A DNA stretch of 64,000 nt from Rhodoferax sp. GTDB lineage: Bacteria > Pseudomonadota > Gammaproteobacteria > Burkholderiales > Burkholderiaceae_C. The stretch lies in the NCBI GenBank assembly GCA_013791765.1, contig VMTC01000049.1, positions 62,001 through 126,000 on the forward strand, written 5' to 3'. Both the position numbers and the translations under genes were made by a program. This document shows positions 12,371 to 62,692 of the stretch, piece after piece. Each line of letters begins with the position of its first letter. Position 1 is the stretch's first letter. The notes beneath the pieces were generated by a model that did not search any database, was not told the DNA's origin, and saw only the letters and a list, made by a program, of their open reading frames with translations.

Positions 12371-12781
12371 TCAAACCCGCTGCGGCGTCAACTTCCAGAG
12401 CGTCGCCCCAGCGCACAACCATTGCAGCACATACATCGCACTGCCGACGCTGTGCCACAGGCGTAGATTCTCGCGCGCCACAATGCGGGGTGCCACGGCA
12501 AACTCAGCCAGAAACGCCAGCAACATGCCAGAAACTATAAAAATAATAGCTGCTTTCGCAGCAGGGACGGGGGCTACAGCCTGATTTTGCCTTGAACTCA
12601 TGAGCAACAGCAGCCCACAGACACACGATACCCAAGTCTGAGCGCTAAACAACCGTGCCGCCATCTGACCTGCCAGCGCTGAGCTTGGCAGAGTCGCAAA
12701 CAACAGGGGCACGACCAGAAAACCGATCGCGCTCAGGCTGCCCCACCACAGCGCTGCCGCCCAAACCGGCAACCGTGACAT
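12371..12781 (-). CDS. DUF4149-like integral membrane protein
   Basis: A 136-residue protein with four predicted membrane segments (about residues 5-30, 45-62, 82-100 and 108-130). The layout, and short motifs such as PRIVARENLRLWHSVGSAMY near the C-terminus, fit the DUF4149 family, whose function is unknown. It starts four bases after greA ends, so the two are probably cotranslated; a greA neighbour of this kind is common in Burkholderiales as far as I know. The central polar loop (SSRQNQAVAPVPAAKAAI) is encoded by a copy of the AATAGCTG repeat at 12545-12591, meaning part of this protein derives from repeat DNA. Confidence 0.75.
   Translation of the reverse strand: MSRLPVWAAALWWGSLSAIGFLVVPLLFATLPSSALAGQMAARLFSAQTWVSCVCGLLLLMSSRQNQAVAPVPAAKAAIIFIVSGMLLAFLAEFAVAPRIVARENLRLWHSVGSAMYVLQWLCAGATLWKLTPQRV
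12545..12591 (+). repeat. AATAGCTG-family dispersed repeat inside DUF4149 gene
   Basis: Begins AATAGCTGCT and ends GGGGGCTACAGCCTGATTTT. It lies fully within the coding sequence on the opposite strand and keeps the frame open. Confidence 0.75.
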
Positions 12782-12785
12782 CAGG

Positions 12786-13262
12786 CTAGACGTAACTCAC
12801 CGCCATCACTTCGTAGTGCTTGACGCCACCTGGCGCCTGCACCTCGGCTGTGTCGCCTTGGACTTTGCCGATCAGCGCGCGGGCAATCGGACTGCCGATG
12901 TTGATCAAACCCAGCTTGATGTCGGCCTCGTCTTCACCGACGATCTGGTAAGTTACGGGGGCGCCGGACGCCTCATCCTCAAGCTGCACCGTAGCGCCAA
13001 ACACCACGCGGCCTTCTGCATGAAGCTCCGCCGGATCAATGACTTGGCAGACCGAGAGCTTGCCTTCAATTTCCTGAATACGGCCTTCGATAAAGCCCTG
13101 CTTGTCCTTGGCGACCTCGTATTCGGCGTTCTCGCTCAGATCACCCTGCGCGCGCGCTTCGGCAATGGCGTTGATGACCCAGGGACGCTCAACTGTTTTG
13201 AGCCTGTGCAACTCGGCCTTGAGCTTTTCAGCGCCGCGTTTGGTGATAGGAAGGGTAGCCAC
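12786..13262 (-). CDS. greA: Transcription elongation factor GreA
   Basis: GreA rescues backtracked RNA polymerase by stimulating transcript cleavage. The 158-residue length is standard. The N-terminal coiled coil (about 1-75) holds LSENAEYEVAKDKQ, whose tip carries the acidic residues that enter the polymerase channel. The C-terminal FKBP-like domain (about 80-158) ends ARALIGKVQGDTAEVQAPGG. It lies downstream of carB after a terminator and a REP-like element, and immediately upstream of the DUF4149-like gene. Confidence 0.97.
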   Translation of the reverse strand: MATLPITKRGAEKLKAELHRLKTVERPWVINAIAEARAQGDLSENAEYEVAKDKQGFIEGRIQEIEGKLSVCQVIDPAELHAEGRVVFGATVQLEDEASGAPVTYQIVGEDEADIKLGLINIGSPIARALIGKVQGDTAEVQAPGGVKHYEVMAVSYV

Positions 13263-13290
13263 GTACTGCTCCGATAAAGAATAAGGAATT

Positions 13291-13338
13291 TGCGGGACAG
13301 ACCGCAGTTACGCGAAGCGAACCAGCTCTGTCCCCAAC
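13291..13338. repeat. REP-like 48-bp element, copy 2
   Basis: One base different from the copy at 12310-12357, same orientation, with the same GGGACAGA/TCTGTCCC ends. It lies between the greA start and the carB terminator, so the pair brackets greA and the DUF4149 gene. Confidence 0.85.
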
Positions 13339-13344
13339 TGATGA

Positions 13345-13382
13345 TGAAAAATAAAAACCGCCGAGCGTTACCGTTCGGCGGC
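13345..13382 (-). terminator. Rho-independent terminator after carB
   Basis: On the minus strand a CCGCCGAACG/CGCTCGGCGG stem (13358-13381, one non-Watson-Crick position) with a GTAA loop is followed by TTTTTATTTTT. It starts about 45 bp past the carB stop and separates carB from greA. Confidence 0.85.
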
Positions 13383-13426
13383 ATTCACAAAATCAGCTTT
13401 GATTATGCCGTGATTGTCCGCTCGTC

Positions 13427-16400
13427 TCAGACCGGAGCCAACTGGGCATGCATCTCCTGGATCGAGATGACGCTCAGATCGTCCATGCAGCGCATCCCTT
13501 GCACCGCCGCCTCGGCGCCGGCAATGGTTGTGAAGGTCGTCACTCGACTCAGCAAGGCCGAGGTTCGGATGTGGCGCGAGTCCGCAATCGCATTGCGCCG
13601 CTCCTCCACCGTGTTGATCACCAGCGCGATTTCCTGGTTCTTGATCATGTCCACAATGTTCGGCCGTCCTTCGGTCACCTTGTTGACAGTGGCACAGTCC
13701 ACGCCGGCCGCAATGATGGCCAGGGCCGTGCCCTTGGTGGCCAGCAGCGTGAACCCCAGAGCAACCAGGTCACGCGCGACTTCAATCACCCGCAGCTTGT
13801 CGTTGTTTTTGACCGAGATGAACACCTTGCCGGCCAGCTCGCCCGAAGGGGTGCGCGCTCTTGGCAATTTCGTACCAGCCCCGATCTGGGATTTGACAAA
13901 GGCCTCGCCAAAGGTCTTGCCCACGCCCATGACCTCGCCGGTGGACTTCATTTCAGGGCCAAGAATAGTATCGACGCCGGGGAATTTGACGAACGGGAAA
14001 ACCGCTTCTTTCACGCTGAAATAAGGCGGCGTGACTTCAGTCCCGATGCCCTGCGAGGCCAGCGACTGACCCACCATGCAGCGCGCCGCCACTTTGGCCA
14101 ACTGAATGCCGGTGGCTTTGGACACGAAGGGCACGGTGCGCGACGCCCGCGGATTGACTTCCAGCACAAAGATCACGTCCAAGCCGTCCAGGCTCTGAAT
14201 CGCGAACTGCACGTTCATCAGACCAACCACGTTCAAGGCCGCGGCCATGGCCGCTGTCTGGCGCTTGATTTCGCTCACGGTTGCAGTACTCAAACTGTAG
14301 GGCGGCAGCGAGCAGGCCGAGTCCCCGCTGTGCACGCCGGCTTGTTCAATGTGCTCCATGACGCCGCCGATGAAGGTTTGGCCCTGCGCATCGCGTACGC
14401 AGTCCACATCGCACTCAATCGCGTCGTTCAAGAAACGGTCCAACAGCACCGGCGAATCGTGACTGACCTTGACGGCCTCGCGCATGTAGCGCTCCAGGTC
14501 GCGCTGCTCATGCACGATTTCCATGGCGCGCCCGCCCAGCACATAGCTCGGGCGCACCACCAGCGGGTAGCCCAGCGCGGCCGCTTTCTCAAGTGCTTCA
14601 GGCTCGGTGCGCGCGGTCGCATTGGCGGGCTGGCGCAGTCCCAATTCATGCAGCAATTTTTGAAAGCGCTCGCGGTCTTCGGCGGCATCGATCATGTCGG
14701 GCGAGGTGCCAATGATCGGCACGCCGTTGGCCTCCAGCGCCAGTGCCAGCTTGAGCGGTGTCTGGCCGCCGTACTGCACGATCACGCCAAAGGGCTTTTC
14801 CTTGTCCACAATTTCGAGCACGTCTTCGAGCGTGACCGGCTCGAAATAGAGACGGTCCGAGGTGTCGTAGTCGGTCGACACGGTCTCGGGATTGCAGTTG
14901 ACCATGATGGTCTCATAGCCATCTTCGCGCATCGCCAGCGCCGCATGGACGCAACAGTAATCAAACTCAATGCCCTGGCCAATGCGGTTGGGACCGCCAC
15001 CGAGCACCATGATTTTTTTGCGCCCGGTGGGCTCGGCCTCACACTCGCTGCCGGTGTCGAAGGGGCTGGCTGACTCATAGGTGGAGTAGAGATAGGCCGT
15101 GTTGGTGGCAAATTCGGCGGCACAGGTGTCCACGCGCTTGTAGACCGGGCGCACACCGAGGGCGTGGCGCTTTTCGCGCACCGCCGTGTCGGTGGTTTTG
15201 AACTGCTTGGCCAGGCGGCGATCAGAAAATCCTTTTTGTTTCAAAGCGCGCAGGGTCGCGCCATCCATCGCATCAAGCGCGCTCCCTTGGGCTGGCACGG
15301 GCAAGTGCTCAATCTCCAACTCAATCTTGACGATCTGCTCGATTTGGACCAGAAACCAGCGATCAATCTTGGTCAGCGCAAATACCTCCTCGACGCTCCA
15401 GCCGGCGGCAAAGGCGTCGCCCACGTACCAGATGCGATCCGGGCCGGGCTCGCCCAGTTCCTTTTCGAGGATTTCACGGTCCTGGGTTTTCTCGTTCATG
15501 CCGTCAACGCCGACTTCCAGGCCGCGCAGGGCTTTCTGGAACGACTCCTGAAAGGTGCGGCCCATCGCCATCACTTCACCGACCGATTTCATCTGCGTCG
15601 TCAGACGACTGTCGGCCGCCGGGAACTTCTCGAACGCGAAGCGCGGGATTTTGGTGACCACGTAGTCAATGCTCGGCTCAAAGCTGGCCGGTGTGGCGCC
15701 GCCCGTGATGTCGTTGCGCAACTCATCGAGCGTGTAACCGACCGCCAGTTTGGCGGCGATCTTGGCAATCGGAAAACCGGTGGCCTTGGAGGCCAGCGCC
15801 GAGGAGCGGCTGACGCGTGGGTTCATCTCGATCACCACCATGCGCCCGTCATCGGGGTTGATCGAGAACTGCACGTTGGAGCCGCCGGTATCAACGCCAA
15901 TTTCGCGCAGCACGGCCAGACTGGCGTTGCGCAAAATCTGGTACTCCTTGTCAGATAGCGTCTGTGCCGGCGCCACCGTGATCGAGTCGCCGGTGTGCAC
16001 GCCCATTGGGTCCAGGTTCTCGATGGAACAAACGATAATGCAGTTGTCGGCAGAATCGCGCACAACTTCCATTTCATACTCTTTCCAGCCCAGCAGCGAC
16101 TCTTCAATCAGCAGTTCATTGGTCGGTGACGCTTCCAGACCGCGCTTGCAGATGACTTCGAATTCTTCCGGGTTGTAGGCAATGCCCCCGCCCGTGCCCC
16201 CAAGCGTGAAACTGGGCCGGATCACGGTCGGGAAACCCACCGTTTTTTGCACGCCCCAAGCCTCTTCCATGCTGTGGGCAATGCCCGAGCGCGCCGAGCC
16301 CAGGCCAATCTTGGTCATGGCATCCTTGAACTTGAGCCGGTCCTCGGCCTTGTCAATCGCCTCGGGCTTGGCGCCAATCAGCTCGACGTTGTACTTCTCT

Positions 16401-16723
16401 AACACGCCGTGGTGCCAAAGATCGAGAGCGCAGTTCAGCGCGGTCTGACCGCCCATGGTCGGCAGGATCGCATCAGGGCGCTCCTTGACGATGATCTTCT
16501 CGACCGTCTGCCAAGTGATCGGCTCGATGTAAGTCACATCCGCCGTGGCCGGGTCGGTCATGATGGTGGCCGGGTTGCTGTTGATCAGGATGACCTTGTA
16601 GCCCTCTTCGCGCAGCGCCTTGCAGGCTTGCACGCCAGAGTAGTCAAACTCGCACGCCTGGCCAATGATGATCGGGCCAGCGCCAATGATGAGGACGCTT
16701 TTGATGTCGGTACGTTTTGGCAT
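13427..16723 (-). CDS. carB: Carbamoyl-phosphate synthase large subunit
   Basis: CarB makes carbamoyl phosphate from ammonia, bicarbonate and two ATP for pyrimidine and arginine synthesis, receiving ammonia from CarA. The 1098-residue protein has the expected two homologous halves, each with an ATP-grasp unit: [15 protein letters not shown] in the first half and [14 protein letters not shown] in the second. An allosteric MGS-like domain ends the protein. The ATG at 16723 ([18 protein letters not shown]) is the family start. It is the third gene of carA-exporter-carB, 88 bp after the exporter, and ends at a strong terminator. Confidence 0.98.
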
Positions 16724-16811
16724 GTTATTGAACTGCTCTCTATTGACTGCGCGCACTCCTTGCGGATTGCAGCGACAAATTCACAAACTCAAAAAAATAA
16801 TCAGGACCGGG

Positions 16812-17495
16812 TCAACTCAGGCTGGCGGTGGCCAGCTTGGCGCCAAACCAGACAAACAAGGCACCCACCAGGCTGGAGAGCCCGCTTGAGAGCCGCTTGC
16901 GCTGGCTGAATGTCTGCGCAAGCCGAGCACCCGCAAAAATCAGCACCGTCAGGTAGGCGGCGCTGAAGCTCATCAAAATGGCACTCAAGATGAGAAAAGG
17001 CACTTCGGGCTCAGCATAGGCCGGGTCAATGAACTGCACAAAGAAAGACAACAAAAACAAAATTGCCTTCGGGTTGAGCAGACTGATCAACAACGCCCGG
17101 CGAAAGGGCCGCTGCAAGTGCGCGGCCGCTGCCGCTGCCGAACTGGGCGCCGCTGCGGGCGGGGTCGATGACAGAACTTCCGCGGGCTTGCGCAGACCTG
17201 CAATGGCACTGCGCAGCAAATTCAAGCCCACCCAAAAAAGGTAGGCCGCGCCGGCGTACTTGAGCACCATAAAAAGCGCCGGATGCGTGCGCAGCAGGCT
17301 GGCCGCGCCCAGCGCAGTACACAGCAGCAAGATCATGTCGCCTACGTACACGCCATAAGCCCCCTGAAAACCGGCACGCACACCCCTCGTGGTGGCCACG
17401 GAAAGGACGTAGAGCGAGTTGGGCCCGGGCAGCAAGATGATGCCGAACGCGCCGACCACATAAGTCCACGGGTCGGTGACGCCGTAAAAACTCAT
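16812..17495 (-). CDS. LysE/RhtB-family amino acid exporter (LeuE-like)
   Basis: A 227-residue inner-membrane exporter of the LysE superfamily. It has the six-helix layout, the N-terminal [18 protein letters not shown] motif typical of RhtB/LeuE proteins, and a long alanine-rich cytoplasmic loop (about residues 105-130). Its ATG overlaps the carA stop by four bases (ATGA), so it is translationally coupled to carA, with carB following. Sitting inside the carbamoyl-phosphate operon it may export an amino acid connected with arginine or glutamine pools; that is inference. The closest named relative by motif is LeuE, but substrate cannot be read from sequence. Confidence 0.88.
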
Positions 17496-18679
17496 CCTCG
17501 CGACTCCATGAATGCTATGAACCGGTCAAACAAGTAGCCAATATCATGCGGACCGGGAGAAGCCTCGGGATGACCTTGAAAACAGAACGCTTGCTTGTCC
17601 GTGCGCTCCAGCCCCTGCAGGGTGCCGTCAAACAGGCTGATGTGGGTGGCGCGCAAGTTGGCAGGCAGCGTCTTTTCATCCACCGCAAAGCCGTGGTTCT
17701 GGCTGGTGATGGAGACGCGGCCACTGTCCAGGTCTTTGACCGGGTGGTTGGCACCATGGTGACCAAACTTCATCTTGAAGGTGCCAGCTCCACTGGCCAG
17801 CGCCATGATCTGATGCCCCAGGCATATGCCAAAAGTCGGAATGCCGGATTCGATCAACTCAGCAGCGGCGGCAATGGCGTAGTCGCAGGGCTGCGGGTCG
17901 CCAGGTCCGTTGCTCAAAAAGATGCCGTCGGGTTGGTGCTTGAGCGCATCCAACGCAGTGGTTTGCGCTGGCACCACGGTCACCCGGCAGCCCCTCGAAG
18001 ACAACATGCGCAAAATGTTTTTCTTGACGCCAAAGTCGTAAGCGACGACATGAAATCTTGGTGATGTCAGTTCACCGTAACCGGGCTTGCCACCCAGGGC
18101 CGACTGGGACAAGCGCCACTCGGTTTGGGTCCAGGCATAGGGCGTTTTGGCTGTGACCACTTTGGCCAGATCGAGTCCGGCCATGGCGGGTGCGGCTTGC
18201 GCCAGCGCAATCGCCTGGTCAATGAGCGCCTGAGTCACAGCCTCGCCGCACGCCAAGGCCATGATGCAGGCGTTTTGCGCACCCTGGCTGCGCAACTGGC
18301 GCGTCAACTGGCGCGTGTCAATGTTGGCAATCGCCACCGTGCCTTCGCGCACCAGGTAGGCACTCAAGGACATGGTTTCACGAAAATTGGACGCCAGCAG
18401 CGGCAAGTCCTTGATGACCAGGCCCGCCACATGCACCTTGTCCCCCTCCACATCTTGATCATTGACACCATAGTTGCCAATGTGCGGATAAGTGAGGGTG
18501 ACGATTTGCTGGCAGTAGCTCGGATCGGTGAGGATTTCCTGGTAGCCGGTCATGGCGGTGTTGAACACCAGCTCGCCGACGGTGGAACCCGTGGCGCCAA
18601 TGGAATGACCAACATAGACGGTGCCGTCTGCGAGCGCCAAAAGGGCGGGGGGGGCATTTCCCTGTAAGGACAAAAGCAC
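17492..18679 (-). CDS. carA: Carbamoyl-phosphate synthase small subunit
   Basis: CarA is the glutamine amidotransferase subunit that supplies ammonia to CarB. The N-terminal half ([19 protein letters not shown]... [21 protein letters not shown]) and the C-terminal class I glutaminase with the nucleophile cysteine in FGICLGHQ and the His/Glu pair in [11 protein letters not shown] are all present. The start is GTG at 18679, seven bases after a CGGAGA Shine-Dalgarno, giving a 395-residue protein starting [11 protein letters not shown] as in relatives; an upstream TTG would add an unconserved arginine-rich leader. The 156-bp region upstream probably holds the promoter. Confidence 0.96.
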
Positions 18680-18835
18680 TGGGTTCTCCGGAAAGGGTTT
18701 TCGGGTACGCCCACGCCCGCTCAAGATGGAACTCTTGGCTTGCTGCTTGAAGGGAATTGGCTTGGGAGGGCGCTAGGCGTACAGGGTGCGATGAGGCGCC
18801 CGAGTATACCTTAGGGTAAGCCCTGAATTGCGTCG
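18680..18835 (-). promoter_or_regulatory. carA upstream region with a candidate -10
   Basis: This gap between the trmH-like gene and carA has a TATACT -10-like hexamer on the minus strand (18803-18808). I see no convincing -35 at the right distance and no clear PyrR or ArgR site, so the promoter call is weak. Confidence 0.3.
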
Positions 18836-19642
18836 CTAAAGACCTGCTGCCGCGCTGGCGTGCAGGCAAATGGCGGCGGCGGCGGCCACGTTGAGCGACT
18901 CTTCACCGCCAGGCTGCGCAATGCGCACATGCAGAGCTGCTTGGGCCTCCAAATCAAAGCTGACGCCCTGCCCTTCGTGCCCCAGCGCCCAGGCGCAGGG
19001 CATCGGCAGCTCCTGATTCTTGATCGCCTGATGCAACCAGGCGCCCCGGTGCGAGCTGGTCACCACGATCGGCACGGCCAGTCGCGCCAAATCAGCCAGC
19101 GCCACGCCTTCAATCAATTGCAGACCCCAATGCGCGCCCATGCCAGCGCGCAGCACCTTGGGACTCCACAGCGCGGCCGTTCCTTTGAGGGCGATGATCT
19201 GTTTGAAACCGAAGGCTGAGGCACTGCGCAGGATCGAACCGACATTGCCGGCGTCCTGCACCCGGTCCAGAATGACCGACGCCAACTGCGGCTGCAAAAC
19301 GGCCACCAGCGGCAAATCAAACACAAAACCCATCTGAGCGGGCGATTCCAGGCCACTGATGGCGGCGAAAAATGAATCTGGAATAACTATATTTTTAATA
19401 GCTGCTCGAGCATATTCCACGCGGGCTAGAGGCCTGGACTTGGGGTTTTGCCAATAAGACTCTGAAAATACGCCCAAAGTGGGTGTCACATGCCGGGCCA
19501 ATGCAGCACCGACCAGGTGCTCGCCTTCGACCCAGAACCGGCCCTGCTTGCGATAAGCCGTGTTGTCTTGCGCCAAACGGCGCAGGTCTTTGAGCAGGGC
19601 ATTGTCGCGCGAGCTGATGTGCTGCACTTGCGAATCGGTCAC
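18836..19642 (-). CDS. TrmH/SpoU-family RNA 2'-O-methyltransferase
   Basis: A 268-residue knotted (SPOUT) RNA methyltransferase. The three family motifs are present: [31 protein letters not shown], and [14 protein letters not shown]. An N-terminal substrate-binding domain precedes (about 1-100). The start is GTG at 19642, whose GTGA overlaps the rnhB stop by four bases; longer starts would run far into rnhB. Exact RNA target (a 23S rRNA site is likely for this type) is not decided by sequence. An AATAGCTG repeat copy at 19398-19440 encodes the [17 protein letters not shown] stretch in the linker before the catalytic domain. Confidence 0.88.
19398..19440 (+). repeat. AATAGCTG-family repeat inside the trmH-like gene
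   Basis: Begins AATAGCTGCTCGAGC and ends CGCGGGCTAGAGGCCTGG. It lies within the coding region of the opposite strand and leaves the frame open. Confidence 0.8.
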
Positions 19643-20298
19643 GGCGCCACCGCCATCAGCACCTCGGCCACCGGGCGGAAGGTCTTGCGGTGCTGCGGGC
19701 AGGCGCCATGCTCCGTCAGGGCCGCCAGATGTTGCGCCGTGCCATAGCCTTTGTGCTTTGCAAAGCCGTACTGCGGGTATTGCACATCGATGTCGCCGCA
19801 CCAGCGGTCGCGGTGCACCTTGGCCAGAATAGAGGCAGCGGAAATGGCTGCGACCAGGGCGTCGCCTTTGACAATGGCTTGCGCCCGTACGGTCAGCAGC
19901 GGTATCCGGTTGCCATCAACCAGCACCAGCGCTGGCTTGAGCCGCAAGCCCTCGACCGCCCGGCGCATCGCGAGCAGCGTGGCCTGCAAGATGTTGAGCT
20001 GCTCAATTTCTTCGACGCTGGCCTGGGCAATGCAGCAGCACAGCGCTTTGGCGCGAATCTCGTCAAACAACTGTTCTCGCCGCCGCGCGCTGAGTATTTT
20101 GGAGTCCGCCAGCCCCTTGATCGGCTGCAGCTCGTCCAGAATCACGGCGGCGGCCACGACCGGGCCAGCCAGCGGGCCCCGACCGGCCTCGTCCACACCA
20201 GCCACCAGGCCCGCAACATTCCACAAGAGCGCAGCCTGTTTGACGGCTCGCCTGTGCAGAATTTCTTTTTCAGTCTTGGAGGACTTGCTGGATCGCAT
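19639..20298 (-). CDS. rnhB: Ribonuclease HII
   Basis: RNase HII removes ribonucleotides misincorporated in DNA and RNA primers. The catalytic N-terminal motif [21 protein letters not shown] is present with the Asp-Glu pair, then [13 protein letters not shown] and [14 protein letters not shown], containing the remaining acidic residues. The ATG at 20298 ([12 protein letters not shown]) gives 219 residues and a 29-base overlap with the end of lpxB; a later start is possible because the family often begins nearer the GVDEAGRG motif. The lpxB-rnhB neighbour pairing is widespread in proteobacteria. Confidence 0.95.
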
Positions 20299-21451
20299 GG
20301 GCGGCCAATCGGGGGGTGTCGCGCAGCAACTCAGTGTGCAGTGCGGCAAATTTTTGTTGCAGGGCCGCTATTTTGTCAGGATGCGACGCGCGGGCCTCAA
20401 ACCATTGCAGCACTTCACGCGCCAGCGCCTGGGGCGTGGCAGCGTTTTGCAGCAGTTCAGGCACGACAAATTCCTGGCAAAGAATATTGGGCAAACCAAC
20501 CCAGGGCTGCAGTTGCTTGCGCCGCATGATCTGCCACGACAACCAGCCCATACGGTACGCGATCACCATCGGCCGCTTGAACAGGGCAGCCTCCAGCGTG
20601 GCGGTGCCACTGGCGATCAGTGTTACGTCGCAAGCGGCCAGCGCCGTGTGCGACTGTCCCTCAAGGATTTGCAGCTGGGCCTGCAGGCCACTGGCACGGG
20701 CCGCCTGTTCGATGCTGGCGCGCAAAGCGGGAATCGCGGGCACTACAAATCTAATAGCTGGTTGTGCTTTATGGACGAGAGCTGCAGCCTGAAAGAACCT
20801 TAAAGCCAGATGCTTGATTTCAGACTCACGGCTGCCCGGCAAGATCGCAACCACCTGATCGGCGTCAAGCAGCCCCAAGGCCGCGCGCGCTGTCAATCGG
20901 TCTGGCACCATCGGGATCACGTTGGCCAGCGGGTGGCCAACGTAGGTCGCAGCAATGCCATGCCGGGCCAGCAGAGCGGGCTCGAACGGAAAAATGCACA
21001 GCACATGGTCAACGCTGCGACGAATTTTCTCGACCCGCTCAGGGCGCCAGGCCCAAATGGAGGGCGAGACAAAATGCACGGTCTTGATGCCCTGCGCTTT
21101 CAAATCGCGCTCCAGATCCAGGTTGAAGTCGGGCGCATCCACGCCAATAAAGACATCGGGGCGCTCTTGCAACAGGCGGGTTTTGAGTTGCCGACGAATC
21201 CCGACAATCTCGCGGTAACGGCGTAGCACCTCCCAGCCAAAGCCATGCACCGACAGCTTGTCGTGCCGCCACCAGGCGACAAAGCCACGGCGCGCCATTT
21301 GAGGGCCGCCAATGCCAACTGCGCTCATGCGAGGCCATTGCTCGCGCAAACCATCGAGCAGCAAACCTGCAAGCAGATCACCCGAGGCTTCGCCGGCCAC
21401 CAGCACCACCTTGAGTTCTTGGCTCATGTCATCTGCCATCTCGGCTGCCAT
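20270..21451 (-). CDS. lpxB: Lipid-A-disaccharide synthase
   Basis: LpxB condenses UDP-diacylglucosamine with lipid X to form the lipid A disaccharide at the inner membrane. The 393-residue protein has [12 protein letters not shown] near the N-terminus, [21 protein letters not shown] and [13 protein letters not shown], all family landmarks. Candidate starts are ATGs at 21451, 21439 and 21427 (MSQELKVV); none has a good Shine-Dalgarno. It follows lpxA by 13 bp. An AATAGCTG repeat copy at 20753-20794 encodes the [14 protein letters not shown] segment between PGSR and VVP without lengthening that segment compared with the E. coli protein as I recall it. Confidence 0.96.
20753..20794 (+). repeat. 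AATAGCTG-family repeat inside lpxB
   Basis: Begins AATAGCTGGTTGTGC and ends GAGAGCTGCAGCCTGAAAG. It lies within lpxB on the opposite strand and stays in frame. Confidence 0.65.
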
Positions 21452-53963: not shown

Positions 53964-53974
53964 GCGCTAGCAAC

Positions 53975-53994
53975 CCCGCCTTTCTGCGCGGGGC
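53975..53994 (+). terminator. Weak hairpin after FKBP gene
   Basis: CCCCGC and GCGGGG form a 6-bp stem around an eight-base loop 12 bp past the stop. There is no T-run, so termination is doubtful. Confidence 0.3.
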
Positions 53995-54059
53995 CAGCGC
54001 GGCCGCTCGGCGCCTCGTGTGCGTCATCGCGAACTTCCAGTTCGCCCCTCTGTTGCACT

Positions 54060-54086
54060 CTTGAATTGTTTGCCAATGCCCCCAAG
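54060..54086 (+). promoter_or_regulatory. Candidate sigma-32 heat-shock promoter of grpE
   Basis: CTTGAAT (54060-54066) and CCCCCAAG (54079-54086) are separated by 12 bases, close to the sigma-32 pattern CTTGAAA-N(11-16)-CCCATNT. It lies 36 bp before the grpE ATG. The -10 block overlaps a small hairpin (GCCCCC/GGGGGC). Confidence 0.5.
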
Positions 54087-54121
54087 TCGGGGGCTTAGCA
54101 TTTCATATTTGACTTATCCGT

Positions 54122-54685: not shown

Positions 54686-54770
54686 TTGCCATCAGCATGG
54701 CGATCGCGACTTGAAAATTTTTTTCTTGTCCATACGTTAAAAATATCTGAATTTCATTGAAGGAAAAATC

Positions 54771-56726
54771 ATGGGAAGAATCATCGGCATCGACTTGGGC
54801 ACCACCAACAGCTGCGTCGCCATCATGGAGGGCAACACGCCCAAGGTGATCGAGAACTCTGAAGGCGCGCGCACCACACCGTCGATCATTGCTTACCAGG
54901 AAGACGGCGAAGTGCTGGTCGGCGCCTCGGCCAAACGCCAGGCCGTGACCAACCCAAAAAACACGCTGTACGCCGTCAAGCGCCTGATTGGCCGCAAGTT
55001 CGCCGAAAAAGAAGTCCAGAAAGACATCGACTTGATGCCTTTCAAGATTGCCGCTGCCGACAACGGTGACGCTTGGGTCGAAGTACGCGGCAACCGCATG
55101 GCGCCGCAACAGGTCAGCGCCGACATTCTGCGCAAGATGAAAAAGACCGCTGAAGATTACTTGGGCGAAGCCGTGACCGATGCCGTCATCACGGTACCGG
55201 CTTATTTCAACGACGCGCAGCGCCAGGCCACCAAAGACGCAGGCCGCATTGCCGGCCTGGACGTCAAGCGCATCATCAATGAGCCGACCGCAGCCGCACT
55301 GGCTTACGGCTTGGACAAAAACGAAAAGGGCGACCGCAAGATCGCCGTTTATGACTTGGGCGGTGGCACTTTTGACGTGTCGATCATCGAAATTGCCGAT
55401 GTCGATGGCGAAAAACAGTTTGAAGTGTTGTCGACCAATGGCGACACCTTCCTGGGCGGTGAAGACTTTGACCAACGCATCATCGACTACGTGATTGCAG
55501 AATTCAAAAAAGACCAGGGCGTGGATCTGGGCAAGGATGTGCTGGCCCTGCAGCGCCTGAAAGAAGCCGCCGAAAAAGCAAAGATCGAACTCTCCAGCAG
55601 TGCTCAAACCGACATCAACCTGCCTTACGTGACGGCCGACGCCTCCGGCCCCAAGCACCTGAGCATCAAGCTCACCCGTGCCAAACTTGAGTCGCTGGTC
55701 GAAGACCTGATTGAACGCACGATTGCCCCGTGCCGCACCGCGATCAAAGACGCCGGCGTCAACGTGGCCGACATTCATGATGTGATTCTGGTCGGCGGCA
55801 TGACGCGCATGCCCAAGGTGCAGGAAAAGGTCAAGGAACTGTTTGGCCGCGAACCGCGCAAGGACGTGAACCCGGACGAAGCCGTGGCTGTCGGCGCTGC
55901 CATTCAAGGCCAGGTGCTGTCGGGCGACCGCAAGGACGTGCTGTTGCTTGACGTGACCCCCTTGAGCCTGGGCATTGAAACGCTGGGCGGTGTTATGACC
56001 AAGATGATCACCAAGAACACCACCATCCCGACCAAGTTTGCACAGACGTTCTCGACCGCAGACGACAACCAGCCGGCCGTGACCATCAAGGTGTTCCAGG
56101 GCGAACGCGAAATCGCCGCTGGCAACAAGATGCTGGGTGAATTCAACCTCGAAGGCATTCCACCGTCAGCGCGTGGCACGCCGCAAATTGAAGTGTCTTT
56201 TGACATCGACGCCAACGGCATTTTGCATGTGGGCGCCAAGGACAAAGGAACCGGCAAGGAAAACAAGATCACCATTAAAGCCAATTCCGGCCTGACGGAA
56301 GCTGAGATTCAGCAAATGGTGAAAGACGCTGAACTGAACGCGGCCGACGACAAGAAGAAACTTGAACTGGTGCAGGCGAAAAACCAGGCCGATGCTAGCC
56401 TGCACAGCGTGAAGAAGAGCTTGACGGACTACGGTGACAAGCTCGAGGGCGGCGAAAAAGAAAAGATCGAAGAGGCCATCAAGCACCTTGAAGAAGCACT
56501 CAAGAGCGATGACAAGGCATCGATCGACGAGAAGAGCACCGCCTTGATGACCGTCAGCCAGAAGCTCGGTGAAAAGATGTACGCCGACCAGCAAGCCAAG
56601 CAGGCGGCTGAGGCGGGTGCTGCCGGCGCCAGTGCCCAAGCGCCCGAGGGTGCGCAAGGTGCGTCCAACCCCGCGGCTGACGACAATGTGGTCGACGCTG
56701 AAGTGAAAGAAGTCAAGAAGGGTTGA
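54771..56726 (+). CDS. dnaK: Chaperone DnaK (Hsp70)
   Basis: DnaK binds exposed hydrophobic peptides in an ATP-driven cycle with DnaJ and GrpE. The 651-residue protein has the ATPase signature [13 protein letters not shown], the second signature [13 protein letters not shown], the third [13 protein letters not shown], and the substrate-binding [17 protein letters not shown] segment. The C-terminal tail ends in an acidic [13 protein letters not shown] stretch. The ATG at 54771 follows GAAGGAAA. A hairpin separates it from dnaJ. Confidence 0.98.
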
Positions 56727-56765
56727 GCGCTTGCGCTGAACATTGTTTTAAACACTGAAAAGGGG

Positions 56766-56795
56766 CGCCGCGTTGAATATTGATTCAACGCGGCG
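56766..56795 (+). other. Perfect 13-bp hairpin between dnaK and dnaJ
   Basis: CGCCGCGTTGAAT pairs perfectly with ATTCAACGCGGCG around an ATTG loop. A weak TTTG follows. It may lower dnaJ expression relative to dnaK or mark an mRNA processing point. Confidence 0.7.
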
Positions 56796-56823
56796 TTTGC
56801 GTTGAAACCAGGCACTCAAAGAC

Positions 56824-57963
56824 ATGGCTAAAAGAGACTACTACGAAGTCCTGGGCGTTCCCAAGAACGCCCCTGACGAAGAAATCAAGAAGGCTTATCG
56901 CAAACATGCGATGAAGCATCACCCAGACCGCAATCAGGGCGACGCCTCCAAGGTGGCCGAAGAGAAGTTCAAGGAGTCCAAGGAAGCCTACGAAATGCTG
57001 TCGGACCCGCAAAAGCGTGCGGCCTATGACCAGCATGGCCATGCCGGAGTCGACCCCAACATGCGCGGCGGACCCGGTACTGAAGGCTACGGCGGTTTCG
57101 CCGAGGCCTTTGGCGACATTTTTGGCGACATGTTTGGCCAGCAGCGCGGTCGTGCGGGCGCGGGCGGGGGCCGTCAGGTCTTTCGTGGCAGCGACCTCAG
57201 CTACGCCATGGAAGTGACACTGGAAGAAGCAGCGCGGGGCAAGGATGCCCAGATCCGCATTCCCAGTTGGGACGCCTGCGACGTCTGCCACGGCAGCGGC
57301 GCCAAGGCCGGCACCCAGGCCAAGACCTGCGGTACCTGCAGCGGCTCGGGTGCGGTGCAAATGCGCCAGGGCTTTTTCAGCGTGCAGCAGACCTGCCCCA
57401 CCTGCCGCGGCACCGGCAAGGTCATTCCTGAACCCTGCACCGCCTGTCACGGACAAGGCAAGATCAAGAAGCAAAAGACCCTGGAAGTCAAAATTCCAGC
57501 GGGTATCGACGGCGGCATGCGCATTCGCAGCGCCGGCAACGGCGAGCCTGGCACCAATGGCGGCCCACCCGGCGACCTGTACATCGAAATCCGGCTTAAG
57601 AAACACGATATTTTTGAACGTGACGGCGATGATATTCATTGCTCGGTGCCGATCAGCATCGTCACGGCCTCGCTCGGTGGCGAAATTGATGTGCCGACGC
57701 TGGCCGGCAAGGCCGCCATCGACATCCCCGAAGGCACCCAGACCGGCAAGCAATTCCGCCTGCGTGGCAAGGGCATCAAGGGCGTGCGTGCCAGCTATCC
57801 CGGTGATCTGTACTGCCACATTCTGGTTGAAACGCCAGTCAAGCTGAGCGAACACCAGCGCAAGCTACTGCGCGAGCTTGACGAGTCGCTCAAGAAAGGC
57901 GGCAGCAAGCATTCACCCAGCGGCGACAGCTGGACCGACCGACTGAAAAGTTTTTTCAGTTGA
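56824..57963 (+). CDS. dnaJ: Chaperone DnaJ (Hsp40)
   Basis: DnaJ stimulates DnaK ATPase and delivers substrates. The 379-residue type I protein has the J domain with HPD (HHPDRNQGD), a glycine/phenylalanine-rich stretch (about 75-120), four zinc-binding repeats ([32 protein letters not shown]) and the C-terminal substrate-binding domain. All are complete. It starts at 56824, 97 bp after dnaK, and ends with a terminator at 58003-58040. Confidence 0.98.
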
Positions 57964-58002
57964 TGAAGATCACATAAGCCATAGAAATTGGCGGTTCTGA
58001 AA

Positions 58003-58040
58003 TGCCACGAAAGATTTAGCTGTCTTCGTGGCATTTTTTT
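58003..58040 (+). terminator. Rho-independent terminator after dnaJ
   Basis: TGCCACGAA pairs with TTCGTGGCA, with inner GA/TC pairing around a short loop, followed by a run of seven to eight T. It begins 40 bp past the dnaJ stop. Confidence 0.9.
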
Positions 58041-58084
58041 GGGCATAGTGGGGGTGTGACACCACTTGAGCGGGATATTTGCAC

Positions 58085-59449
58085 ATGAGCGTCAACATTA
58101 CTTTTCTGGGCGGCGCTGGCACCGTCACCGGTTCCAAATACCTGGTGCGCCACGGCGCCGAGAGCCTGCTGTTGGACTGCGGCCTGTTTCAGGGCTACAA
58201 GCCGCTGCGCTTGCGCAACTGGAGCCGCTTGCCGGTCGCACCGAGCCAAATTGACGCCGTTGTGCTGACCCATGCGCACCTGGACCACAGCGGTTATCTG
58301 CCCTTGCTGGTCAGAGAAGGTTTTTCGGGCCCGGTGCACGTCACCAGTGGAACGCGCGACCTGTGCCGCATCCTGTTGCCCGATAGCGGTCACATCCAGG
58401 AAGAAGATGCAGCCTTTGCCAACCGCCACGGCTTTTCAAAACACGCGCCCGCCCTGCCCCTGTACACGCGCCAAGATGCGCTCGATTGCCTGCCCCGGTT
58501 GAAGGCGGTCGACCTCGACAAAATATTTCAACCGATCCCGGGCTGGAAGGCCACGTTTTCCACCGCCGGCCATATTCTGGGCGCCGCCAGTGTGCTGCTG
58601 GAAGTGGCTGGGCGGCGAATTTTGTTCTCCGGCGATCTGGGTCGCCCCGACGATCTCATCATGAATCCCCCTGCCAACGCGCCAAAGGCCGACACGGTGC
58701 TGATCGAGTCCACCTATGGCGACCGTGAACACCCCAAGGAGGACGTGCTCGGTGAACTGGCGCCCGCGCTGCAAAGGCTGGCCAAACGCGGCGGTGTGGC
58801 GGTGATTCCGGTGTTTGCGGTGGGACGCGCCCAGGCCCTGCTGCACGCGATTCATCAGCTCAAGCTGCGCGGCGATCTGCCCACCTCGCTGCCGGTCTTT
58901 CTGGACAGCCCGATGGCCGTCCACACCACCCATTTGTTTGAACAGCATCTGGGCGAACACCGGCTCAGCAAGAAGGAAGCCCAGGCGCTGACGCACTGCG
59001 CCACCATGGTCAGCAGCACCGACGAGTCGCGTGCCCTGGCCAATCGGCATGGCCCGATGGTGATTCTGTCGGCCAGCGGTATGGCGACTGGCGGGCGCGT
59101 GCTGCATCACTTGGCGCATTACGCGGGCAACCACCGCAACATGATTATTCTGACGGGCTACCAGGCGCCTGGCACCCGGGGCGCCACCATCGCCAGTGGC
59201 GCCAAGTCGGTGCGTATCCATGGCCGCGACGTGGAACTCCAGGCTGAAGTGGTGCAACTGCAATCGGCCTCGGCACACGCCGATGCCAACCAGCTCCTGG
59301 CGTGGCTGCGCACAATGCCGGGCGCGCCGGACCAGGTCTATGTGACGCACGGCGACTTAGGCGCATCGGACGAATTTCGCAAACGCATCAAGCATGAGTT
59401 GGGCTGGCGTGCCACGGTACCGGAACATGGTTCCACCTGGCCGACTTGA
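58085..59449 (+). CDS. MBL-fold beta-CASP ribonuclease-like protein
   Basis: A 454-residue protein combining an MBL domain and a beta-CASP domain, as in CPSF-73-like nucleases and RNase J relatives of bacteria. The opening ITFLGGAGTVTGSKYLV and the metal motif HAHLDH (63-68) are clear, with GHILGAASV and the beta-CASP segments IESTYGDREHP, SGMATGGR and SAHADANQLLAWL. RNA processing or degradation is the usual role; the targets are unknown. ATG 58085 (MSVNITFLGG) is the start. The next gene lies six bases downstream. Confidence 0.9.
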   Translation: MSVNITFLGGAGTVTGSKYLVRHGAESLLLDCGLFQGYKPLRLRNWSRLPVAPSQIDAVVLTHAHLDHSGYLPLLVREGFSGPVHVTSGTRDLCRILLPDSGHIQEEDAAFANRHGFSKHAPALPLYTRQDALDCLPRLKAVDLDKIFQPIPGWKATFSTAGHILGAASVLLEVAGRRILFSGDLGRPDDLIMNPPANAPKADTVLIESTYGDREHPKEDVLGELAPALQRLAKRGGVAVIPVFAVGRAQALLHAIHQLKLRGDLPTSLPVFLDSPMAVHTTHLFEQHLGEHRLSKKEAQALTHCATMVSSTDESRALANRHGPMVILSASGMATGGRVLHHLAHYAGNHRNMIILTGYQAPGTRGATIASGAKSVRIHGRDVELQAEVVQLQSASAHADANQLLAWLRTMPGAPDQVYVTHGDLGASDEFRKRIKHELGWRATVPEHGSTWPT

Positions 59450-59455
59450 ACCGGC

Positions 59456-59995
59456 ATGAAGAAGAACTTTCAGCAATTCTTCGAGTTCGCCGCAGGCACC
59501 GGGGCGCTGGTCATCAGCTTTACCGGCGTCCTGCTGATGCTGTTGCTGGTGTTCCCTGCCCTGCCGATTAGCGGCGAGTTGATCGACTTGAAGCTGTACT
59601 ACACACTGGCCGATATTGAGGCCGCGATGCGGCAATACGGTCCCCAGGGCCGTGCCGTTTACGCCCTGGCGAGCCCGACTGTAGATACCTTTTTTCCGCT
59701 CTTATATGCCACGTTCTTTTCTGGCCTGATCTACCGCCTGCGCCCGAGGGAGAGCTTGTGGGTGATGGCATTCATCCCGGTCGTGGCCGGGCTCTGGGAC
59801 CTGTGCGAAAACGCGCAAATTACCGCGATGCTGCTGCAGTACCCGGACCTCTCGGCACCTCAGGTCGCGCTAACCTCATTCTTCACCAGCGTCAAGCACC
59901 TGCTGAGCGCGGCGTATGAACTGACAGCCCTGGTGTTCCTGGCCCTGTTTCTGCTTCGCCGCGTGAAGCGGGCGCGCCAGCCCGGCAGCTCATAG
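59456..59995 (+). CDS. Predicted integral membrane protein, unknown function
   Basis: A 179-residue protein with about four membrane segments (about 13-35, 72-90, 98-116 and 148-168) and a basic C-terminus (RRVKRARQPG). I do not recognise the family. It starts six bases after the beta-CASP gene and is probably cotranscribed with it. A terminator hairpin lies at its end, shared with the convergent secreted-protein gene. Confidence 0.7.
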   Translation: MKKNFQQFFEFAAGTGALVISFTGVLLMLLLVFPALPISGELIDLKLYYTLADIEAAMRQYGPQGRAVYALASPTVDTFFPLLYATFFSGLIYRLRPRESLWVMAFIPVVAGLWDLCENAQITAMLLQYPDLSAPQVALTSFFTSVKHLLSAAYELTALVFLALFLLRRVKRARQPGSS

Positions 59996-60037
59996 CGGGC
60001 TAGGCGGAGTTTCACCGCATCATCAGCCCGCTTTTAT
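59994..60037 (+). terminator. Terminator between convergent genes
   Basis: AGCGGGCT and AGCCCGCT form an 8-bp stem with an inner GCGG/CCGC pairing, followed by TTTTATT on the plus strand. It overlaps the stop codon of the minus-strand gene. Confidence 0.75.
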
Positions 60038-60429
60038 TGAGCCGGCGTAACCATGATGCTTTTGCGCAAGATGCCGCCGTCCGCAACCCCTTTTTCGACG
60101 TTGCCCTCGCCCAGGATGCGCGCTACACACGCGATGCGGTCGTCTCCTTGGTGGGCGTCACAGCGCTGCAGCGCGTTTTGCTGATATTGGTCGGGCGCTG
60201 CGCTGAGCTTGCCGCGCCGAGCGGCGGCGAGCGCGTTGCCTGCCTCAAGCCGGCAGGTCGCGATGGCCTGATTGGATTGTCCGCTGGTGCAGACCGCCAT
60301 ATCCTGGCGGTAGCGCGCCTGGGCATCGCTTGGGGCGTCGGCGCTGCTTGCCAGTGCCGCAGTGGCACCCAGCAGGGTGGCGCCTGCGGCAAGAACGAGT
60401 TGGCGAAGCGGAAGATAAAAAGTGCTCAT
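60034..60429 (-). CDS. Small secreted periplasmic protein, unknown function
   Basis: A 131-residue protein with a signal peptide (about 1-27, LVLAAGATLLGATAALASSA) and a mature part with four cysteines spaced so that two disulfides are possible (AVCTSGQ, ATCRLE, LQRCDAH, RIACVA). The ATG at 60429 follows AGGAG by seven bases. I do not recognise the family. The spacing resembles small periplasmic proteins of Burkholderiales without known function. It is convergent with the membrane protein gene. Confidence 0.65.
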   Translation of the reverse strand: MSTFYLPLRQLVLAAGATLLGATAALASSADAPSDAQARYRQDMAVCTSGQSNQAIATCRLEAGNALAAARRGKLSAAPDQYQQNALQRCDAHQGDDRIACVARILGEGNVEKGVADGGILRKSIMVTPAQ

Positions 60430-60668
60430 ATTGAACTCCTGGGTCATGCGGTTGGACGAATGCGATGGTCGCAACCCGTTGAGCGCCGGTCCCGTGCGGA
60501 CAAACGCGCAAGCGGCTCATGGGAGGCTCCCAATTGCATGATTGAAGAATAGGCCAATAATTTGGCGCTGTATGTGCGCTCTCGTACCGAGTGGCAACTG
60601 CACAGGTCGATAATCTGCGGCCCCTTCGACACACCCGGCGATTCGCACCAGCGACGCTTGAAATCACC

Positions 60669-61607
60669 ATGACCGACTTCCTGACCGCCGCCTTTTACAA
60701 ATTTATCGAACTAGCCGATTACGCCGAGCTCCAGGCGCCGTTGCTCACCTGCTGCGAAGCCAACGACGTCAAAGGCACGATTCTGCTGGCGACCGAGGGC
60801 ATCAACAGCACGATTGCCGGACCGACGGCGGGCGTGCAGGCCGTGCTGGCGTACCTGCGCCGCGACCCGCGTCTGGCCGACCTGCAACACAAGGAGTCAT
60901 GGTCGGCCAAAGCACCGTTTTACCGGATGAAAGTACGCCTCAAGCGCGAGATCGTCACCATGGGCGTACCCGGCATCAGCCCCACCTTGATGGCCGGCAC
61001 CTATGTCAAGCCGCAGGACTGGAACGCGCTGATCAGCGACCCCGAGGTGGTGGTGATCGACACGCGCAACAATTACGAGGTCGGCATTGGCAGCTTCGCG
61101 GGCGCCGTCAATCCGGACATCAAGAGTTTTTCAAAATTGCCGCAATGGATCGCGCAAGCACCCGCCTTGCACCCGGCCAGCGGCAAGAAGCCCAAGGTCG
61201 CCATGTTTTGCACCGGCGGCATCCGCTGCGAAAAGTCCACCGCGCTCTTACGCTCGCAAGGTTATGACGAGGTCTATCACTTAGAGGGCGGCATCCTGAA
61301 ATACCTGGAGACGGTGCCCGAGGCGCAAAGCCTGTGGCAGGGCCAGTGTTTTGTCTTCGACGAGCGGGTGTCGGTGGGCCATGGCCTCAAGCCCGAGCAG
61401 CACAGCCTGTGCCGCGCCTGCCGGCATCCGCTTGATGAGACCGACTTGGCGTCAGCGCTGTTTGAGACCGGCGTGAGCTGCCCCAAATGCCACGCAATCA
61501 CCAGCGAAACTCAAAAGAACAGCGCCCGCGAACGCCAGCGCCAATGGGAACTGGCCAAAGCCCGTCAACGGGTTCACATCGGGGAGAAGCCAAATACTAT
61601 CAATTAA
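60669..61607 (+). CDS. trhO: tRNA uridine(34) hydroxylase TrhO (YceA, rhodanese)
   Basis: TrhO hydroxylates uridine 34 of certain tRNAs, using a rhodanese-domain cysteine and oxygen. The 312-residue protein has an N-terminal acylphosphatase-like domain (about 1-95), a rhodanese domain with CTGGIRCEKS (active Cys near 181), and a C-terminal cysteine-rich tail (CRACRHP, CPKCHA) suggesting metal binding. The ATG at 60669 (MTDFLTAAF) is the family start. Its TAA stop abuts an AATAGCTG repeat copy. Confidence 0.94.
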   Translation: MTDFLTAAFYKFIELADYAELQAPLLTCCEANDVKGTILLATEGINSTIAGPTAGVQAVLAYLRRDPRLADLQHKESWSAKAPFYRMKVRLKREIVTMGVPGISPTLMAGTYVKPQDWNALISDPEVVVIDTRNNYEVGIGSFAGAVNPDIKSFSKLPQWIAQAPALHPASGKKPKVAMFCTGGIRCEKSTALLRSQGYDEVYHLEGGILKYLETVPEAQSLWQGQCFVFDERVSVGHGLKPEQHSLCRACRHPLDETDLASALFETGVSCPKCHAITSETQKNSARERQRQWELAKARQRVHIGEKPNTIN

Positions 61608-61655
61608 ATAGCTGTTAGCGCTTATTTCACGCGGGCTACAGTCCGATTAGGCACA
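61607..61655 (+). repeat. AATAGCTG-family repeat between convergent genes
   Basis: Begins AATAGCTGTTAGCGC and ends CGCGGGCTACAGTCCGATTA. It fills the 39-bp gap between trhO and the convergent flavin oxidoreductase gene and slightly overlaps both ends. Confidence 0.85.
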
Positions 61656-62612
61656 ATTTCTTGCCAATAATCGGGCCCGCGCACTGGCATACTCACGCTT
61701 GAGTTGCGCCACAAAATCAGCGGTGCTCTGAATCTTGCTGACGGCGCCAATGCCCTGGCCGCAGCCCCAGATGTCTTTCCAGGCTCGGGACTTGTCGCCA
61801 CCAAAGTTCATCTTGCTGGGGTCGCTTTCGGGCAGGTGCTCGGGGTCCAAACCGGCGGCGCGGATGCTGGGCGCCAGGTAGTTGCCGTGCACGCCCGTGA
61901 ACAGGTTGCTGTAGACGATATCGTCCGAATTGCTGTCCACAATGGCCTGCTTGTAATCCTGGGCTGCCCGCGCTTCTTCTGTGGCGATGAAGGCCGAGCC
62001 GATGTAGGCAAAGTCTGCCCCCATGGCTTGGGCGGCTAGCACGGCATCGCCACTGGCGATGGCACCGCTCAAGACCAGCGGGCCGTCAAACCACTGGCGA
62101 ATTTCCTGAATCAAGGCAAAGGGGCTCTTGAGACCGGCATGGCCGCCGGCCCCAGCAGCGACCGCGATGAGGCCGTCGGCGCCCTTCTCGATCGCTTTGT
62201 GCGCATGCTTGTTGTTGATGACGTCATGCAGCACCACACCGCCATAGGAGTGGGCGGCCGCGTTGATGTCTTCGCGCGCGCCCAAAGACGTGATGATGAT
62301 CGGCACCTGATACTTGACGCACAGCGCCATGTCGTGCTCCAGACGGTCGTTGCTCTTGTGCACGATCTGGTTGATGGCAAAAGGCGCGGCCGGTTGCTCC
62401 GGGTGCGACAGGTTGTGGGCGGCGAGCGCCTCGGTGATCTCGATCAGCCACTCTTCGAGTTGCTCGGCCGGGCGCGCGTTGAGCGCCGGCATGGCACCGA
62501 CCACACCGGCGATGCACTGGGCAATCACCAACTTGGGGTTGCTGATGATGAACAGTGGCGAGCCGATCACGGGGAACGGCAAGCGATTCAGGGGCGCAGG
62601 CAGGTGGGACAT
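61647..62612 (-). CDS. Nitronate monooxygenase / flavin oxidoreductase
   Basis: A 321-residue TIM-barrel FMN enzyme of the nitronate monooxygenase (2-nitropropane dioxygenase-like) family. The FMN segments are seen as PLFIISNPKLVIAQCIAG, GLIAVAAGAGGHAG and LVLSGAIASGDAVLAAQAMGADFAYIGSAF. It may oxidise alkyl nitronates to protect against nitro compounds; related enzymes do other reductions, so the role is not certain. The ATG at 62612 follows GGAG by five bases. A repeat copy lies between it and the acyl-CoA dehydrogenase gene on the right. Confidence 0.88.
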   Translation of the reverse strand: MSHLPAPLNRLPFPVIGSPLFIISNPKLVIAQCIAGVVGAMPALNARPAEQLEEWLIEITEALAAHNLSHPEQPAAPFAINQIVHKSNDRLEHDMALCVKYQVPIIITSLGAREDINAAAHSYGGVVLHDVINNKHAHKAIEKGADGLIAVAAGAGGHAGLKSPFALIQEIRQWFDGPLVLSGAIASGDAVLAAQAMGADFAYIGSAFIATEEARAAQDYKQAIVDSNSDDIVYSNLFTGVHGNYLAPSIRAAGLDPEHLPESDPSKMNFGGDKSRAWKDIWGCGQGIGAVSKIQSTADFVAQLKREYASARARLLARNCA

Positions 62613-62644
62613 CAATGCTCCGACAATAGAGTAGTTTATAGATG

Positions 62645-62692
62645 AAAATAGCCGCTAGCCCTTGTCAAACAAGCGCGAGCAGCTATCAAATT
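62645..62692 (-). repeat. AATAGCTG-family repeat, near-complete palindrome
   Basis: This reverse copy is the clearest palindrome of the family: GATAGCTGCTCGCGCTTGT can fold against GACAAGGGCTAGCGGCTAT. It lies between the acyl-CoA dehydrogenase gene and the nitronate monooxygenase-like gene. Confidence 0.85.

Follow-up and report, generated by a model that had tools for sequence, protein, structure and literature searches.

The 64,000-nucleotide stretch of Rhodoferax sp. examined here (assembly GCA_013791765.1, contig VMTC01000049.1, positions 62,001–126,000 of the forward strand; hereafter the window) contains ten copies of a dispersed repeat of about 70 bp, which probably represents a recognition motif in double-stranded DNA. 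The copies lie within genes, across gene 3’ ends and between genes, as follows, with scores from a profile of the repeat.

12530–12599 (+): copy 1, antisense within a DUF4149 (Pfam) open reading frame (ORF) at 12371–12781 (−); 54 bits
19382–19451 (+): copy 2, antisense within a SpoU-type rRNA methylase gene at 18836–19801 (−); 49 bits
20738–20807 (+): copy 3, antisense within lpxB at 20270–21475 (−); weaker, 26 bits
34867–34936 (+): copy 4, its own TAG forming the stop codon of an amidase gene at 33555–34886 (+); 54 bits
39423–39492 (+): copy 5, overlapping the stop codon of a YjeF/NAD(P)H-hydrate dehydratase gene at 37967–39439 (+); 40 bits
40776–40845 (+): copy 6, at the 3’ end of a GGDEF gene at 39566–40777 (+); 34 bits
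47050–47119 (+): copy 7, between a convergent pair, an EAL gene ending at 47027 and an SDR gene at 47120–47875 (−); 35 bits
53529–53598 (−): copy 8, between HxlR-like and FKBP genes; weak, 14–15 bits
61592–61661 (+): copy 9, overlapping the 3’ ends of convergent rhodanese (60591–61607, +) and nitronate monooxygenase (61647–62615, −) genes; 51 bits
62633–62702 (−): copy 10, between two tandem (−) genes, the sole strongly palindromic copy in the window; 47 bits

Three GGDEF or GGDEF/EAL signalling proteins are encoded in a row between 39566 and 47027; one copy lies close to the end of the first and another close to the end of the third.

The repeat unit and its abundance

All ten copies had been placed and oriented in a preliminary description of the sequence, and all are present, with E-values of 1.5e-9 to 3.4e-16 under a model seeded from those same ten, a test that is circular for them. 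The length given there, 40–48 bp, was too short. In the alignment of copies the unit spans about 70 bp, positions −14 to +55 relative to the R of RATAGCTG, and its boundaries lie 15 bases ahead of that R and 23 bases past GGGCTA. The unit consists, in order, of GCTAY, RATAGCTG, 18 bases, GGGCTA and an AT-rich end.

In the 4.17-Mb genome, the pattern AATAGCTGN{12,28}GGGCTA had 60 matches, 59 of them with exactly 18 bases between the AATAGCTG block and GGGCTA. The pattern RATAGCTGN{20}GCTA, with 11 fixed bases and one A/G, had 101, and GGGCTA was complete in all but three of the matches listed, though this pattern left both extra G free. Neither had any match in the reversed control. A profile gave 130 matches of at least 10 bits in the window and a set of fetched loci, mostly chosen for holding copies, and none in reversed DNA. 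When 150 candidates were scored with a sequence-only model, all matched with E below 1e-9, so that the genome has at least 150 copies, which corresponds to a site every 28 kb or so, or to a higher density. This is a lower bound, as the 150 were drawn from 1,620 first-look candidates. The true number is higher, because five window copies (those at 39423, 40776, 47050, 53529 and 20738) were outside the scored set, which contained the other five. The window is rich in copies, with seven of the 101 exact matches where 1.6 were expected, for a region chosen after the fact.

Nineteen copies in this genome that fall outside the pattern have the same consensus, with G, G, G, C and T at positions 27–31 in 18 or all 19 of them. 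The G+C content is about 41% over 74 bp (36 copies). Some neighbouring columns vary together – columns 24–25 are CG or TA, and columns 18–19 are TA or AT – and sub-versions ACGNGGG and ATAAGGG appear to coexist. Columns 17–22 and 26 are widely variable within the one genome, while the columns adjacent to them are fixed.

At least one match was found in 69 of 89 genomes of the genus and in 90 of 250 genomes of the family, though single matches are near chance, and in some genomes a few also turn up in the reversed control. Within the genus, copy number is highly uneven: 35 of the 89 genomes have at least 20 copies, 48 have eight or fewer, and 34 have none or one. The suggestion that similar repeats exist in other Comamonadaceae was borne out, as the 80 matching loci listed include Rhodoferax, Polaromonas, Acidovorax, Simplicispira, Giesbergeria, Paenacidovorax, Comamonas and Variovorax; two of the matches listed (L241 and L280) appear to be due to chance. 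When 24 other families of the order were sampled with one genome each, a stricter pattern had no match.

Placement, folding and mobility

For placement, 120 copies of the genome were classed, all of at least 20 bits, a threshold that excludes weak copies such as that at 53529. Of these, 25 are intragenic, 30 lie between convergent genes and 56 between co-oriented ones; divergent genes flank 4, and the remaining 5 lack a second neighbour. Expected numbers, from intergenic lengths in 427 kb of the window and its relatives, were 12.8, 60.7 and 16.5 for the convergent, co-oriented and divergent classes (chi-square P 6e-8), so that convergent gene ends are favoured and divergent promoters avoided. 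This agrees with the placement first described – at gene 3’ ends, between convergent genes and within genes – and the copies at 12530, 19382 and 20738 are intragenic. The ORF caller missed the DUF4149 ORF, and the copy at 12530 is therefore tallied as intergenic in these classes.

Nineteen genes terminate inside a copy on the same strand, some of them on the TAG of the motif itself, as at 34867. The intragenic copies are antisense in 14 cases and sense in 11, and all 25 use one reading frame per strand, the stop-free frame of the consensus. No replication polarity was found: adjacent copies had the same orientation in 26 of 47 pairs in this genome and in 21 of 43 in the relative G062. Nor was there regular spacing, the 44 exact copies of G062 being uniform along its main contig.

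An excess at convergent gene ends is what an intrinsic terminator or an mRNA 3’-end hairpin would produce, and the copy at 34867 overlaps a terminator-like site. However, the number of such sites is close to that in shuffled sequence (16 against 13.3 in 34500–47500, and 14 against 12.6 in 53000–63500; the two regions hold seven copies, those at 12530–20807 lying outside them). No other copy in the two regions overlaps a listed stem beyond its edge, the stem at 53509–53531 touching the copy at 53529. Nine of the ten window copies do not fold, and intragenic copies occur on both strands. It is hardly conceivable, given these results, that termination is what the repeat is for. Assignment to the intrinsic terminators, defined by a G+C-rich stem and a run of T, was rejected; the copy at 34867 is the exception.

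The copy at 62645 is near-palindromic, as reported, and folds best of the ten as RNA (z −3.22, with none of 200 shuffles as good). The other nine window copies fold no better than their shuffles (z −0.95 to +0.22). Mutual information over 92 copies revealed no coherent helix, and when a 17-pair palindrome was imposed on 48 copies of this genome, 56.1% of cells were paired, compared to 56.7% in shuffles. In the consensus, with its usual arms GCGC..GGGC, a G is retained opposite another G close to the middle of the stem that would form. Rfam covariance models at the gathering threshold detected only one tRNA in the window. Palindromic versions do exist in other lineages: GCCCTT..AAGGGC in G061 and G024, where two G061 sites match the pattern on both strands, and GCGCTT..AAGCGC in several other genera, the two versions differing by one compensated pair. 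Because palindromes are present in other lineages and none is conserved in this genome, pairing is a property of some variants of the motif, here called dialects, and not of the family in this genome. The view of the family as degraded hairpins is not upheld for this genome. Of the two properties on which the preliminary description had made the family depend, the excess of matches over chance is huge, and conservation of secondary structure between copies is absent.

Palindromic copies are one reason to consider a mobile element, in which a hairpin unit resembling repetitive extragenic palindromic (REP) sequences or miniature inverted-repeat transposable elements would have been spread by a Y1 transposase of the REP-associated tyrosine transposase (RAYT) group, or by another transposase, and would since have mostly degraded. 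There are two Y1 transposases in this genome, and one of them lies between two copies, the downstream copy overlapping its stop codon (locus L059). Repeat-like 3’ parts also lie over the RAYT stop codon at L115 and L116 (9–11 bits) and, by eye, at L114. A Y1 gene is present in all 35 genomes with at least 20 copies, and Y1 gene number is weakly correlated with copy number (rho 0.30, P 0.004, n = 89). However, Y1 genes are found in 79 of the 89 genomes, including 40 of the 48 with eight or fewer copies. The RAYT loci share a different palindrome, AATTGGGGTCAGATTCCAATT, downstream in all eight loci read and upstream in five of them, whose dispersal (0–21 per genome) is unrelated to the copy number of the repeat (rho −0.02). 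A role for the RAYT is conceivable but has little support. The lack of covariation in the repeat, the sites common to different species and the behaviour of coding copies described below also count against a mobile element, which we regard as an unlikely source of the family.

REP sequences are dispersed palindromes of small size that frequently lie close to the 3’ ends of genes. The repeat differs from REP/RAYT systems in having no conserved hairpin in this lineage and in the separate palindrome beside the RAYT of about 240 amino acids; as regards the hairpin, identity with them is unsupported, one of the ten window copies having a significant one.

The Y1 RAYT of about 240 amino acids is found at L059:1444–2169 and at L109, L110 and L112–L116, near gltB or a methyltransferase/slyB-like gene, and looks vertically kept. 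AATTGGGGTCAGATTCCAATTAATT follows it in all eight loci and precedes it, inverted, in five, and a GGGACA-containing segment lies beyond its stop codon. With one copy as the query, no match was found in phages, and one of 72,556 plasmid records matched, in two places. That match is in Rhodoferax antarcticus (NZ_CP019241.1, 20359–20409). The exact pattern was found in seven stretches of viral contigs.

Conserved sites and change in place

Syntenic blocks from six relatives could be compared for five window copies, the flanks of the other five not having paired. The copies at 12530, 19382, 20738, 34867 and 53529 have counterparts at the corresponding places in G076 and G062, which are 89% and 84% identical to this genome over the 2.6-kb spoU–lpxB locus. 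At 12530 the length is unchanged in both, and at 53529 the related sequences score 37.5 bits in G076 and 15.4 bits in G062. The first four are also at the same place in G095 and G032, with flank identity of 67–84%, though G095 is weak at 12530 and 20738 (12.9 and 11.7 bits). The copy at 34867, found in these four relatives, is absent from G096, which is without 65–67 bp at this site, by insertion or deletion. As judged from these alignments, the positions of the copies are old.

Genome G096 has two exact copies. In its block (L213–L215) there are two weak copies, of 16 and 25 bits, at places occupied in other species, as if maintenance had recently stopped.

In 22 pairs of orthologous copies, informative columns were 87% identical, uninformative columns 65% and flanks 81%, a comparison biased by the need for both orthologs to be detectable with the model. 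Plain decay, as first proposed, fits poorly with columns of the motif that stay alike across species while variable columns turn over, with the same caveat of ascertainment.

The sites in lpxB and the SpoU-type methylase gene (spoU) were compared by DNA alignment in this genome and 29 relatives, which matched best among the 88 genomes with any match. Both sites have constant length in all 29 relatives; this genome carries 18 extra bp in spoU. A solved LpxB structure aligns without a gap within the copy at 20738. At each site, all 11 genomes with at least 20 copies had a motif of at least 10 bits, compared to 2 of the 18 with eight or fewer (Fisher 2e-6). In lpxB the low-copy exceptions were G083 and G096, and in the methylase gene G083 and G008. 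The score at the site followed the copy number of the genome, with rho 0.84 for spoU and 0.88 for lpxB. As a control, 253 windows sliding over the same 2.6 kb gave a median rho of 0.19 between similarity to the sequence of this genome and copy number, with a 95th percentile of 0.74. The 14 best of these windows all overlap the two copies, and shared ancestry alone is therefore insufficient to account for the pattern. Since repeat-free relatives and the solved LpxB align without a 70-bp gap, the copies in lpxB and the methylase gene are, on this comparison, not insertions.

The pattern at lpxB extends to other genera. Among 30 genomes hand-picked by copy number from the 250 of the family, 10 of 15 with high copy number (at least 39) had at least 10 bits at the lpxB site, compared to none of 15 with no copies, and the translations were recognisable LpxB in all 30. 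The dialect of the genome itself was the best fit at lpxB in four of six genomes (G143, G349, G336 and G023), with dialects tabulated from 16–17 listed copies each. Dispersed bacterial repeats are usually classed as mobile debris, and these two coding sites tell another history – what tracks the repeat content of the genome is the DNA letters, not the length of the protein.

Elsewhere in coding regions the picture is mixed. The segment with the copy, set against solved homologs, is about 1 residue shorter in Lnt, and longer by about 6 in LeuRS, 10 in a CoA-transferase, 11 in ThiL, 14 in PurL, 18 in the CCA/poly-A polymerase (Cca) and 22 in DprA, as read from printed alignments. Insertion of the unit would add about 23 residues each time and pure change in place none, so insertion is possible at some of these sites. 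The extra residues in DprA, Cca and PurL favour a mobile element, whereas the lack of a single unit length in a range from about 0 to 22, and the copies in lpxB, spoU and Lnt, which do not appear to be insertions, speak against it. Insertion may have contributed to some copies, in loops and linkers, and an origin in place is not claimed for every copy.

Proposed recognition by a trans-acting factor

Of the explanations considered, we favour, with some reservation, the view that the repeat is a long recognition motif in double-stranded DNA and that a factor acting in trans, most probably a DNA-binding protein with sequence specificity, reads it. The strong blocks RATAGCTG and GGGCTA, whose spacing is almost invariably 18 bases, would together with the AT-rich flanks constitute the motif. 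A reader is proposed because the conserved columns are held while their neighbours drift, because the set fades in some lineages, and because the preferred letters differ by lineage. It is also suggested by the near absence of the motif from many close relatives, together with the lack of any sign of insertion in the two genes examined most closely. Since sense and antisense coding copies are about equal in number and no RNA structure is conserved, the reader would act on DNA rather than RNA. Its preference might drift between lineages, giving the copies of one genome a shared dialect, and in a lineage that lost the reader the copies would decay under the remaining coding constraint. The most likely role, less firmly, would be to mark or organise the chromosome at the ends of transcription units. 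We put forward more tentatively a wider claim, short of an even chance: that the 70-bp unit is a chromosomal signal throughout the Comamonadaceae, held at one to several hundred sites by a drifting reader that shapes the codons of lpxB and the methylase gene at constant protein length, and lost many times.

Several observations weigh against recognition by a reader. To our knowledge, protein binding sites are far shorter than this motif, and no periodicity of about 10 bp was seen in its information profile. No candidate for the reader was found, comEC being the only uptake gene tried. At lpxB, G062 and G032 have a sequence that does not match the dialect of their own genomes. On a tree of the locus with the copy columns removed, high- and low-copy genomes interleave with seven Fitch changes, which favours a reader, but shuffling mostly gave more changes (mean 9.6, with seven or fewer in 36 of 1000), meaning that the relatives are phylogenetically non-independent, and the deep nodes of the tree are weak (ultrafast bootstrap, UFBoot, 25–63). 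To these are added the Y1 gene in every high-copy genome, the detection bias in the comparison of orthologous copies, and the possible part of insertion at other coding sites.

The main alternative within the same reading is that the motif biases transfer of the DNA carrying it. Uptake signal sequences (USS) and DNA uptake sequences (DUS) are dispersed signals within and between genes, with lineage variants and accumulation in place. A signal of this kind, for DNA uptake or another transfer bias, would accumulate by point mutation and recombination as motif-bearing alleles were preferred, and it fits the behaviour in place, the lineage dialects, the repeated changes of state and the use of both strands. 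The likeness in accumulation holds at the two coding sites only. Uptake signals have a short core and high density, unlike a unit of 70 bp that occurs 150 times or more in 4.17 Mb, a density of roughly one site every 28 kb or slightly higher. The lpxB site is kept across genera, and comEC, present in 83 of 89 genomes and nearly universal, does not discriminate high from low copy number. We consider transfer bias improbable on balance. For comparison, the USS of H. influenzae has the consensus AAGTGCGGT and ca. 1300 copies (PMC5217627).

Concerted evolution by ectopic gene conversion between copies, with no reader, would likewise give lineage-specific consensus sequences, changes in place and the paired variants at columns 24–25 and 18–19. 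Conversion should homogenise all columns, yet columns 17–22 and 26 vary beside fixed ones, and it leaves unexplained why the motif is lost from both coding sites as the genome-wide number falls. It is a very unlikely explanation. For the recognition motif, the occurrence of high-copy and near-zero-copy species in one genus provides natural presence/absence sets in which to hunt for the reader.

Two motifs reported in a 2017 survey are very probably other dialects of the same family, judging from their published spacing alone: ATAGCT(N)22CAAAAG in Polaromonas naphthalenivorans, with 125 copies, 34 of them between convergent genes, and GCTTAT(N)5AAGCG in Acidovorax ebreus, with 114 copies (PMC5217627). 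The C...G of the second block of the survey motif is in the register of CTAGAG, and the placement agrees, with 44 convergent, 4 divergent and 59 co-oriented in the survey. Rhodoferax ferrireducens T118 had the most significant motif pairs there, 140. The passages available from the survey call both motifs unexplained “potential novel motifs” with no function; these passages do not join the motifs to each other, and contain no 70-bp unit, test of change in place or reader (PMC5217627). The 70-bp unit, the joining of the dialects into one family and the behaviour in place were not found in the open-licence literature searched.

The Betaproteobacterial repeat elements (BRE), described as about 90 bp, with 69% G+C in Bordetella and tandem arrays at some loci, have four copies in Rhodoferax ferrireducens (PMC3110155). 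In the passages available from that source they resemble the present repeat in being dispersed in Comamonadaceae, mostly intergenic and sometimes intragenic, and are called possibly mobile. The present repeat is set apart from that description by its length of 70 bp, its G+C content of about 41% and its greater abundance, and on length and G+C content, compared by description, identity with BRE is unsupported. The passages on Rhodoferax ferrireducens available from PMC2755013 mention, as repeats, only clustered regularly interspaced short palindromic repeats (CRISPR).

A second repeat family is present in the window, a 72-bp direct repeat at 12309–12380 and 13290–13361, 85% identical, of the form TTGCGGGACAGACCGC...CTGTCCC. 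A hairpin-like sequence related to it lies downstream of the amidase gene in G076 and G062.

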